Shown piece after piece: positions 249 through 4,700 of a stretch of 32,751 nt of DNA. The notes under the pieces were generated by a model that was given only the letters and a program-made list of their open reading frames with translations, had not been told where the DNA came from and made no database searches. The stretch's first letter is position 1. Every line of letters begins with the position of its first letter. The stretch comes from Actinomycetes bacterium. Lineage in GTDB: Bacteria; Actinomycetota; Actinomycetes; Streptosporangiales; Streptosporangiaceae. Location: assembly GCA_025964615.1 (NCBI GenBank), contig JAOPYM010000444.1, positions 1-32,751 on the forward strand. The letters are read 5' to 3'. The translations under genes and the position numbers were made by a program.

Positions 249-1106
249 TCATATGCCGGCGGCGGTGGTCAGGGCGCGGGCGGTGAGGACGCGCGCGAGG
301 TGCTCGCGGTACTCGGCGGAGCCGTGCAGGTCGCCGGTGGGCGCGGTGCCCTCGGCGGCGTGCGCTGCGGCGGCCTTGAAGGCGTTCTGCGTCGCCACCC
401 GGCCGAGCAGCGCCCGTTCCACCTCGTGCGCCCGTACCGGAGCCGGACCCATGTTGGTGAGCGCCACGCGGCACTCTTCGATGGCCCCGTTCGCCCGGCG
501 GACCCCGCAGGCCACCCCGACGATGGCCCAGGCCTGCGCGGTCCGGTGGAACTTCTCGTAGTGGAAGCCCCAGCCAGTTCCGAGCTTGGGGATCCGCACC
601 CCGAGCAGCAGTTCCGCGGGCTCCAGAGCCGAGGTCAGGTAGTCCTCGAAGAAGTCCGCGGCGGGGATCTCCCTGGGGCCGTGCGCTGACTGGGCGATCA
701 GCACGCCGTCGAGCGCGAGGATCACGGCGGGCAGGTCCCCGGCCGGATCGGCGTGCGCGAGCGACCCGCCGAGGGTGCCCCGGTGCCGTACCGCCGGATC
801 GGCGACCGTCGCGGTGGCCTGGGCGATCAACGGCGCGTGGGCCCGCACCAGCGGGTCCTTGATGACCTGATGGTGGGTGGCCATCGCGCCGATGAACACC
901 GAGTCACCGGTGTCCCTGATCTCCCGCAGCTCCGCCACGTGGTCGAGGTCGACCAGCACCTCGGGCAGGGCGAGCCGGAGCCGCAGCAGCGGCATCAGGC
1001 TCTGCCCGCCGGCCAGTACCTTGGCGTCCTCGCCGGATTCGGCGAGCGCGGAGACGGCCTCGCCGATGGTGGTGGGCCGCAGGTAGTCGAACGATCCGGG
1101 GATCAC
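249..1106 (-). CDS. coxM: FAD-binding subunit (CoxM/CutM-like) of a xanthine dehydrogenase/CO dehydrogenase family molybdenum hydroxylase
   Basis: [21 protein letters not shown]...VLAGGQSLMPLLRLRLA...HRGTLGGSLAHADPAGDLPA is typical of FAD-binding molybdopterin dehydrogenase subunits. GTG start overlaps the coxL stop (GTGA). Confidence 0.9.
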   Translation of the reverse strand: MIPGSFDYLRPTTIGEAVSALAESGEDAKVLAGGQSLMPLLRLRLALPEVLVDLDHVAELREIRDTGDSVFIGAMATHHQVIKDPLVRAHAPLIAQATATVADPAVRHRGTLGGSLAHADPAGDLPAVILALDGVLIAQSAHGPREIPAADFFEDYLTSALEPAELLLGVRIPKLGTGWGFHYEKFHRTAQAWAIVGVACGVRRANGAIEECRVALTNMGPAPVRAHEVERALLGRVATQNAFKAAAAHAAEGTAPTGDLHGSAEYREHLARVLTARALTTAAGI

Positions 1107-3442
1107 TGGGCGACCCCTTCCTGGAGGGCGCGCCAGACGCGTTCGGGCGTACATGGCATCCGGACGTCGGACACCCCGAACGGGCGGAGCGCATCGACGA
1201 TGGCGTTGACGACCGCCGGGGTCGAGGCGATGGTGCCGGCCTCGCCGACGCCCTTCACCCCGAGCGGGTTGGTGGTCGCCGGTGTCTCGGTACGGTCGGT
1301 GGTGAAGGTCGGCAGGTCGGACGCCGACGGCACCAGGTAGTCGGCGAGCGTGGTGGTCTGCAGGTTGCCGTCCACGTCGTACACGGCCTCCTCGTAGAGG
1401 GCCTGGGAGATGCCCTGCGCGAGCCCGCCGTGCACCTGGCCCTCCACGATCAGCGGATTGACGACCTTGCCGATGTCGTCCACCGCCACGTACTTCCGGA
1501 TCTTCACGAACCCGGTCTCGGTGTCCACCTCGGCGGCGCACAGGTGCGTGCCGTGCGGGAACGAGAAGTTCTCCGGGTCGAAAGTGGCCTCGGAGTCGAG
1601 CGACGGCTCGATCCCGTCCGGCAGGTTGTGCGCCGCGAACGTGGCGCCCGCGATCTCCTGGATGGACATGCCCTGTTCCGGTACGCCTCGTACCGAGAAC
1701 CGGCCGTTCTCGAACGTGAGGTCGGACGCGTCGGCCTCAAGGAGATGCGCGGCGACGACACGTGCCTTGTCGACCACCTTGACGCAGGCGCCGACCAGTG
1801 CGACCCCGCCGACCACCAGGGACCGGGAGCCGTAGGTGTCCAGTCCCTTGTGCGAGATCGCCGTGTCGCCGTGCAGGACCCGTACGTCCTCGAACGGCAC
1901 GCCGAGCGCGTCGGAGGCGATCTGCGCCCACGCCGTCTCGTGTCCCTGGCCGTGCGCGGACGAGCCGGTGAGGACCTCGACCTTGCCGGTCGGCAGCATC
2001 CGCACGGCCGAGTGCTCCCAGCCGCCCGCCCCGTAGAACAGCGAACCGAGCACCCGGGAGGGGGCCAGTCCGCACATCTCAGTGAAGGTCGAGACGCCGA
2101 TGCCGAGCTGTACGGTGTCGTGCCGTTCCCGGCGGTCGGCCTGCTCGGCGCGCAGCTTGTCGTACTCGAACAACTGCAGCGCCTTCTCGGTCGCGGCCTC
2201 GTAGTTGCCCGAGTCGTAGGTCAGCCCGCAGACGGTCTCGTACGGGAACTCGTCGTGCTTGATCCAGTTCCGCCGCCGTACCTCGATCGGATCCAGGTCC
2301 AGCTCGTGTGCCAATTCGTCCATCAGCCGCTCGATGGCGAACGTGGCCTCCGGCCGCCCCGCGCCGCGGTAGGCGTCGGTCGGCATCTTGGTGGTGAACA
2401 CGCCGGTGCAGGTGAAGCTGTACGCGTCCATCTTGTAGATGGCGGGGAACATGAACGCGCCGAGCAGCGGTATGCCCGGCGTGACCAGCATGAGGTACGC
2501 GCCCATGTCGGCGAGCAGGTCCACGTTCAGGCCGCGGATCCGCCCGTCGGCGTCGGCGGCCAGCCGGAGCCGCTGGATCTGGTCCCGGCCGTGGTGCACG
2601 GTCTGGTTGCCCTCGCTGCGCGACTCGGTCCATTTCACCGGCTTGCCCAGCTTGCGGGCCAGGATCAGCGTGATGACCTCCTCGCCGTACACCTGCAGCT
2701 TGGAACCGAAGCCTCCGCCGACGTCCGGGGCGATCACCCGCAGGTTCTGCTCGGGCACGCCGGTGACGCTCGCCAGCATGACCCGCAGGATGTGCGGGAT
2801 CTGGGTGGAGGACCACACCGTCATCTGATCGCCGAACGGCTGGCAGACCACCGAACGGGGCTCCATCGCGCTGGGGATCAGCCGCTGCTGCACGTACTCG
2901 CGTTCGATGACCACGGCCGCGTCGAGGAACGCGGCGTCCAGGTCGCCGTTGGCGAAGACCCAGGTGTAGGACTTGTTGGTGCCCTTGTCGGAGTGCACCA
3001 GATCGGCGCCCTCGGCCAGGGCCGCCTGCATGTCCAGGACGGGCGGCAGCGGCTCGTAGTCCACATCGATGGCCTCGAGGGCGTCGGCCGCGGCGTACCG
3101 GTCGCGCGCCACCACGCAGGCCACCGGCTCACCGGAGTACCGCACCTCGGTGACCGCGATCGGCGGGTGGTCGGGCAGCACCATGTCCGGGGTGACGACC
3201 CATGCGCAGGGCAGCCCGCCCTGTTCGCCGGCCAGGTCCGCGCCGCTGAAGACCGCGACCACTCCCGGCCTGTCCAGGGCCGCCGAGGTGTCGACGTTGA
3301 CGATCCGGGCGTGTGCGTACGGGCTGCGCAGGAACGCCACGTACAGCATCCCCGGCAGCTGGATGTTGTCGGTCCACTGGGTGTTCCCGGTGATCAACCG
3401 GGCATCCTCTGAGCGCTTGCGAGCGGTGCCGACCTCAGTCAT
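1103..3442 (-). CDS. coxL: Molybdopterin-binding large subunit, CoxL-like form II (aldehyde oxidase/xanthine dehydrogenase family)
   Basis: 779 aa; [28 protein letters not shown] and [21 protein letters not shown] motifs. Confidence 0.92.
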
Positions 3443-3923
3443 GGCTCGTCACCTCGCTGTGGCTCATCTCGTGAGCGGCGGACCGGACCGCCCGCACGAT
3501 GTTCTGGTAACCGGTGCACCTGCACAGGTTGCCCTCCAGGCCCTCACGGATCTCCTCGTCGGAGGGGTCTGGGTTCTCCCTCAGCAGGTCGATCGAGGCC
3601 ATGATCATGCCCGGCGTGCAGTAGCCGCACTGCAGCCCGTGCTCGGAGTGGAATGCCTCCTGCATCGGGTGCAGTGCGCCGTTGATCCTCAGGCCCTCGA
3701 TGGTGGTGATGTCGTGGGTGTCGGCCTGTACGGCGAGGACGGAACAGCTCTTCACCGACATCCCGTCCATCAGGACGGTGCAGGCTCCGCAGTTGGTGGT
3801 GTCACAGCCGACCGGGGTACCGACCTTCCCCAGCCGATCACGCAGATAGTGGACAAGCAGGAGTCGCGGTTCGACGTCGTCCTCGTACGTCACACCGTCG
3901 ACCTCGACCTTGATCCGGGGCAT
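3435..3923 (-). CDS. coxS: [2Fe-2S] iron-sulfur subunit (CoxS-like)
   Basis: [17 protein letters not shown] and [11 protein letters not shown]...[17 protein letters not shown] [2Fe-2S] motifs. Overlaps the coxL start by 8 bp. Confidence 0.93.
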
Positions 3924-4039: not shown

Positions 4040-4045
4040 TTGACA
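4040..4045 (+). promoter_or_regulatory. Candidate -35 box TTGACA for the Cys-leader transcript
   Basis: Perfect TTGACA, then 18 nt, a weak -10 candidate (TCTCCT, 4064-4069), and 7 nt to the ATG at 4077; a possible leaderless layout. Confidence 0.35.
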
Positions 4046-4076
4046 GCGGAGGGTGACGGAGTGTCTCCTAGAGCAC

Positions 4077-4160
4077 ATGCCAGCGCATTCTGCCGTATCC
4101 AGCCACCTGGGCCTCCGCCCCGTGGCCGGCGCGCTGTGTCCTTCGTGTTGTTGTCGCTGA
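4077..4160 (+). CDS. 27-aa cysteine-rich leader peptide MPAHSAVSSHLGLRPVAGALCPSCCCR, putative cysteine-responsive regulatory uORF
   Basis: ATG at 4077, TGA at 4158-4160. Four Cys in the last seven residues, all TGT codons, upstream of a cysteine dioxygenase-like gene. Not in the supplied ORF track because of length. Confidence 0.75.
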   Translation: MPAHSAVSSHLGLRPVAGALCPSCCCR

Positions 4161-4232
4161 CCTGTCCGTCTCAGCGGCTTTCCCGGTTCTGACCGTTCTC
4201 CTGGGCTGTCTCCGCGCCCGTACACGAAGGAC
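4138..4232 (+). promoter_or_regulatory. RBS-sequestering long-range helix: gtccttcgtgt (4138-4148) pairs with acacgaaggac (4222-4232)
   Basis: 11 nt of perfect reverse complementarity. The 3' arm contains the SD-like AAGGA (4227-4231), 7 nt before the GTG start at 4239; the 5' arm overlaps Cys21-Cys24 codons of the leader ORF. Confidence 0.6.
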
Positions 4233-4238
4233 TTCCCG

Positions 4239-4700
4239 GTGGATCTCACTATCCGGCTTGAAGACGTCATTCCCGACCTGGGCATGCGTGGCCAGGATGA
4301 CCCGCATGGCCGGTCCGCGCTCCGGGGCCCGCTCACCGTCGGCCAGCTGGCGACCCGCATCCACGACCTGGCCGCCCGCCCCGCCGACTGGTGGCACCTG
4401 GTGCGCTTCGACCCTGCCGGTTCGGTGCGGGTTCCGCTGGAGGACACCGACGGGGTACGGCTCTGGCTGACCACCTGGCCACCACGGTCCGGTACCGGCC
4501 CGCATGATCACGACGGGGAGACGTCGGTCTCCGCGGTGGTCGCCGGGGAACTGGTCGAGGTCACCGTCTCCTCGGACGGCGCCACCGAGAGGGAGCTGCG
4601 CGCCAACCGGGTGCGCGTACGCGGCGGCGGTCACCTGCACGAACTCCACAACCCGGGCCCCGCCTACGCCATCACCCTGCACGCTCACTTCACGCACTGA
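4239..4700 (+). CDS. Cysteine dioxygenase family protein (cupin)
   Basis: Cupin motifs GPHDHDGETSVSAVVAGELVE and GGGHLHELHNPGPAYAITLHAH; size 153 aa. Confidence 0.85.
   Translation: MDLTIRLEDVIPDLGMRGQDDPHGRSALRGPLTVGQLATRIHDLAARPADWWHLVRFDPAGSVRVPLEDTDGVRLWLTTWPPRSGTGPHDHDGETSVSAVVAGELVEVTVSSDGATERELRANRVRVRGGGHLHELHNPGPAYAITLHAHFTH

Follow-up and report, generated by a model that had tools for sequence, protein, structure and literature searches.

Cysteine-codon runs were noted in leaders preceding cys operons of Actinobacteria in 2005, and Rho was proposed for the mycobacterial ones because no terminators were found (PMC1262725). The same work described the LEU element upstream of leuA in Actinobacteria, where a run of Leu codons pairs with the leuA Shine-Dalgarno (SD) sequence (Seliverstov et al. 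2005, PMC1262725). Polycysteine short ORFs were then proposed in mycobacteria in 2015 (PLoS Genet, PMC4633059) and, as two later articles relate it (PMC9031893, PMC13236596), these leaders act by attenuation (Canestrari et al. 2020, Mol Microbiol 114:93-108); the first of the two ascribes control over the downstream gene's translation to ribosomes that pause at the Cys codons (PMC9031893). The first-pass annotation of the window, by which we mean the whole 32,751-nt stretch of DNA analysed, had appealed to this mycobacterial principle for a leader ahead of a cysteine dioxygenase-like gene, and the precedent is indeed on record (PMC4633059, PMC9031893).

By every computable feature the window leader works like the known Cys-leaders. 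Like the mycobacterial polycysteine leaderless attenuators, as far as those accounts describe them, it is a short ORF, probably lying at the 5' end of its transcript, whose Cys codons cluster close to the stop and which is followed by a sulfur-related gene. The differences lie in the target, a dioxygenase-fold gene where the mycobacterial targets are sulfur-assimilation genes such as nirA and cysA2, and in the setting, a gene standing alone in a Thermomonosporaceae-like rather than a mycobacterial lineage. The LEU element differs in serving leucine and a biosynthetic gene and in having a conserved pseudoknot. We also compared the NCBIfam mycobacterial leader families NF042933 (Ms5788A), NF042936 (Ms4527A) and NF042934 (cis_reg_atten). 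NF042934 did not match the window leader, two leaders from the window leader's family reached 13.2-13.3 bits against a cut-off of 27, and membership in these families was rejected on such scores. Four other leaders of the same genome (L122-L125) do score above the NF042934 cut-off; read by eye, L122 and L125 precede ABC transporter binding-protein-like genes and L123 lies at a membrane-protein/rhodanese-like locus. A search of the literature, which covered Canestrari et al. 2020 through articles that cite it, found no published description of this leader family with its target, and a text search gave no relevant paper linking cysteine dioxygenase, Streptomyces and a leader. The leader family and its dioxygenase-like target thus appear to be undescribed so far.

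We read the ORF at 4077-4160 as the sensor of a translational attenuator that is ON under Cys-tRNA shortage and whose target would be useful in scarcity, and we give this reading a probability of roughly 85%. The features it involves are as follows.

4040-4045, plus strand: TTGACA, a putative -35 element that lies 37 nt upstream of the leader ATG and is conserved in nearly all orthologs.
4077-4160, plus strand: leader ORF of 27 codons, MPAHSAVSSHLGLRPVAGALCPSCCCR, with ATG at 4077-4079 and TGA at 4158-4160.
4137-4154, plus strand: proposed sensor, the Cys-Pro-Ser-Cys-Cys-Cys codons (TGT CCT TCG TGT TGT TGT), marked by the codon bias of the family's leader tails.
4138-4148, plus strand: anti-SD arm GUCCUUCGUGU, within the Cys-Pro-Ser-Cys codons, pairing with 4222-4232 and co-varying with the SD across clades.
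4222-4232, plus strand: SD arm ACACGAAGGAC, including the Shine-Dalgarno GAAGGA at 4226-4231, identified by the stem, by covariation and by release under a masked ribosome.
4239-4700, plus strand: the gene proposed to be controlled, encoding a thiol-dioxygenase (CDO_I)-fold protein of 153 aa with a GTG start, assigned by Pfam CDO_I and an AlphaFold model.

The sequence bears out the coordinates first given for the leader, a 27-codon ORF from ATG 4077 whose stop lies 78 nt before the GTG of the dioxygenase-like gene at 4239. Its four Cys codons (4137-4139, 4146-4148, 4149-4151 and 4152-4154) are all TGT, which had been called notable for a high-GC genome; that remark holds, as Cys in the window's long high-GC3 frames is encoded by 89 TGC and 16 TGT. 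Among 799 open seven-codon stretches preceding a stop on both strands of the whole window, the 4077 leader is the only one with at least four Cys. This uniqueness, together with the presence of the leader in 64/64 orthologs, rules out a chance ORF. Antisense to leader and gene runs a 209-codon open frame (4068-4697, minus strand), probably a by-product of high G+C, which is worth knowing because gene finders may favour it.

Orthologs were gathered from relatives, from named genomes (Actinomadura, Thermomonospora, Spirillospora, Actinocorallia and one Actinoallomurus MAG) and from 345 genomes of the family; dropping identical leader regions left 64 non-redundant orthologs, mostly from Actinomadura and its relatives. 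Alignment of these upstream regions was the check that the first-pass annotation had set beforehand, and a Cys-ended leader persists in all 64, in frame and upstream of the target gene, with none missing. The consensus approximates M[PS]AR...PVALRRVASALCPSCCR*, the start is ATG or GTG, and frame and peptide are kept throughout. Codon choice in the tails is narrow: Cys is encoded by 201 TGT and 5 TGC, Pro nearly always by CCT and Ser nearly always by TCG, and third codon positions are almost invariant at the stem (CCT TCG TGT). The tails differ in how many Cys they have and how these are spaced, ranging from CPSCG to CCSCPSCCCR, with Cys codons gained as whole triplets and pairing to the SD retained, and the residues PVALRRVASALC preceding the Cys run are likewise conserved. 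A leader upstream of every dioxygenase paralog was considered and rejected: distant paralogs mostly have no Cys-ended leader, with few exceptions, and the two other dioxygenase paralogs in the genome have none of this kind. Outside the set of 64, an Actinomycetota MAG whose protein is 40% identical (L082) carries a leader ...FCSSCCCC*, and here too the tail folds onto the SD of that locus.

The TGT codons belong to a stem that pairs with the SD, a point absent from the first-pass annotation. In the predicted RNA, 4138-4148 and 4222-4232 form a perfect 11-bp stem in both the minimum-free-energy and the centroid structures, and the SD within it (GAAGGA, 4226-4231) ends 7 nt before the GTG at 4239. 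The 204-nt leader region has a fold z-score of -3.0; the segment 4134-4250 scores -2.8, and starting at 4146, which removes 4134-4145 and with it most of the arm, gives 0.05. The stem matches no Rfam family.

To examine co-evolution, leaders and SD regions were exchanged between orthologs and pairing energies compared. Leaders paired with their own SD at a mean of -24.9 kcal/mol against -23.1 for random swaps, a value matched in 0 of 5000 permutations. Because most sequences are of one type (PSC), the comparison between types is the clearer test of covariation. Within the main clades (PSC, PAC and PCC/LCC) own pairs lie at -24 to -25 kcal/mol and most swapped ones at about -17 to -19: PAC leaders fall from -24.4 with their own SD to -18.3 with PSC SDs, and PCC/LCC/PRC leaders from -25.4 to -16.6 kcal/mol, while PSC-type leaders still pair fairly well with SD regions of the PCC/LCC clade (-23.0). 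In the non-PSC clades both the arm and the SD side have shifted, as in L098, where CUGUUGUUGUCGC faces GCGACGACAACAG. Since the orthologs are related, this covariation should be counted as a few clade-level shifts, not as 64 independent events. Synonymous recoding of the same peptides tells a similar story, real leaders of the family pairing at -25.1 against -18.8 for recoded ones (median p 0.027); taken alone, the window leader is not significant (p 0.27), so that the case rests on the family. The earlier claim that a Cys-codon leader controls the downstream gene is therefore strongly supported by conservation in 64/64, codon constraint, the SD-sequestering stem and covariation between clades.

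We modelled the ribosome as a footprint masking leader codons and then computed the probability that the SD is unpaired. In the window this probability rises from 0.02 in free RNA to 0.41 with the ribosome on the Cys codons; the ortholog median rises from 0.003 to 0.37 with the ribosome at the first tail Cys, and accessibility increases by more than 0.05 in 56/64 orthologs when the tail Cys codons are masked. Stalling early in the leader leaves the SD closed in the model. A terminating ribosome on the stop codon opens the stem too (0.36), so that the switch hinges on dwell time alone. On the favoured reading, when Cys-tRNA is abundant ribosomes would traverse the leader and depart, letting the Cys-Pro-Ser-Cys codons fold onto the SD and block the gene, and when Cys-tRNA is scarce they would linger on the UGU codons, covering the anti-SD arm and leaving the SD free for translation. 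The target would then assist the cell under sulfur or cysteine scarcity, perhaps as a thiol dioxygenase whose substrate is some non-cysteine thiol or, for many of the species, in a metal-independent role.

Control might instead be exerted on transcription: ribosomes stalled at the Cys codons would release or impose termination, Rho-dependent or intrinsic, within the 78-nt spacer. The spacer is pyrimidine-rich in orthologs, and Rho is what was suggested in 2005 for the mycobacterial cys leaders, where terminators were not found (PMC1262725). However, a consensus scan of the spacer gave no intrinsic terminator, its one weak hit (4128-4140) falling within the leader ORF, and a classical transcription attenuator was rejected for want of a terminator hairpin with a T run. 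Moreover, the partner with which the Cys codons co-vary is the SD itself, which such control would not need. We regard transcriptional control as improbable, the best placed of the alternatives all the same. As to where the transcript begins, the spacing from TTGACA to ATG would place its start at or near the leader ATG, and the orthologs have cTTGACAAcg and GTGTCTCCTAG...C upstream of the leader start codon at a near-constant distance. No recognisable Shine-Dalgarno precedes the leader start codon in the window or in the orthologs. The transcript is probably leaderless, starting at the leader start codon; we go no further than probably because the -10 position (about 4064-4069, TCTCCT) is non-canonical and weak and a consensus scan gave no sigma-70 promoter.

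The nature of the target bears on the sign of the response. The window protein scores 33.1 bits against Pfam CDO_I (cut-off 23), and its AlphaFold model has a pLDDT of 80 with residues 1-17 at low confidence. The best PDB match of the model is ergothioneine dioxygenase, cysteine dioxygenases ranking lower, and the solved structure closest to the window protein in both sequence and fold is that of the Thermocatellispora tengchongensis enzyme (PDB 8qfl-8qfr; 28% identity, TM about 0.7, 30 bits). An HxH plus third His metal site is present (H89, H91, H134), and the position of the dioxygenase-triad tyrosine holds His in the window protein and is variable in the family. We considered the target as an ergothioneine dioxygenase ortholog and ruled this out, as its 30 bits fall far short of the 178 scored by a different protein encoded in this genome. 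That protein, the third dioxygenase copy (L135, G000:C436:3500-9500), has an EgtD homolog next to it on the opposite strand, which makes ergothioneine an unlikely task for the window protein.

The metal site is intact in 30-31 of the 64 orthologs, and the leader is kept in groups with and without it. Parsimony counts six changes of the metal site, on a tree with weak forks and some long branches. The group lacking HxH has a dN/dS ratio of about 0.42, against 0.38 where HxH is present, and its N-terminal motif stands at 0.18, so the HxH-less orthologs do not look like decaying genes. This motif, VPDLTMRGQDDPHGR, is near-invariant in the subfamily, though it is of low confidence in the model and the metal site is absent in many members.

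A genuine cysteine dioxygenase induced in cysteine excess, by completed translation of the leader, would agree with the Pfam CDO_I match, with the Cys-rich leader before an intact dioxygenase elsewhere (the second genus discussed below), and with the opening of the stem by a terminating ribosome in the model. We consider it slightly less probable than transcriptional control: the metal ligands are gone from roughly half of the leader-bearing orthologs and, since free RNA hides the SD and stalling on Cys codons frees it, shortage and not excess should raise expression. Induction by Cys shortage in turn argues against simple cysteine catabolism, as degrading cysteine would then be futile. That the substrate is cysteine, as the first-pass annotation took it to be, is thus unproven, given the nearest structure, the incomplete retention of the metal histidines among the orthologs and the shortage-induction geometry. 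As conjecture, the picture would suit a dioxygenase that liberates sulfite from some thiol besides cysteine, or a protein without a catalytic role. One may go on to speculate, tentatively and with the odds somewhat against it, that the Cys-shortage switch drives a pseudo-enzyme (e.g., a thiol sensor or regulatory partner) in sulfur starvation; on this view the metal site would have been lost several times with the switch and VPDLTMRGQDDPHGR kept, and in the second genus an intact relative would be under a switch of like kind.

Less probable again is that the peptide is itself the product, either a short Cys-rich polypeptide that reacts with metals or thiols and acts in trans or a nascent-chain arrest peptide, with RNA pairing secondary. 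The conserved PVALRRVASALC and a resemblance to NF042934, a family of sulfur-gene leaders (13 bits against the cut-off of 27), speak for it; the variation of Cys number and spacing with SD pairing kept, and the constraint on synonymous positions just as the stem requires, speak against it. A structured RNA (thermosensor or riboswitch) with an incidental ORF is very improbable. The strong conserved SD-hiding stem, which requires no reading frame, speaks for it; against it, frame, start codon and peptide are kept in 64/64, Cys codons are added as triplets and Rfam has no match.

If the 4077 leader acts by translational attenuation, control through cysteine codons is no longer confined to mycobacteria but also governs a conserved unit of one gene in Actinomadura-type bacteria. 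It also poses a puzzle, that a gene annotated as cysteine-degrading is yet seemingly built for switching on under cysteine shortage; either the annotation would be wrong for the whole subfamily, or sulfur starvation would need a thiol oxidation that has been overlooked.

A second large genus of the same class, probably Streptomyces, may use cysteine-codon attenuation in a different geometry. Its genomes are mostly 6-12 Mb and have the dioxygenase gene in 119/121. At 45 of the 50 loci examined, an unlike Cys-rich leader (typically MLANLALTSTRTAGSHGAARARCSCCCCSSC*) precedes an intact dioxygenase relative (loci L012, L144, L147-L150, L152, L154-L161, L165 and most of L169-L218). SD pairing of the window type was not found in these leaders; their Cys codons are complementary to codons just past the gene start (AUGAACAGCGAC). 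Own pairs were no better than swapped ones, so that this start pairing shows no sign of covariation in the genus. When the Cys codons were masked at 16 loci, the start region became more accessible, the mean going from 0.27 to 0.51.

In the window's own lineage the target is a lone gene, adjoined in most relatives by a phosphatase-like gene (identity read by eye) on the opposite strand. A cysteine operon was rejected, the neighbours not being conserved as sulfur genes. Upstream of the leader-gene unit the window holds a divergent molybdenum hydroxylase operon of the aldehyde/CO dehydrogenase type with three subunits (249-3923, minus strand), which in most relatives is swapped for an unrelated divergent gene.
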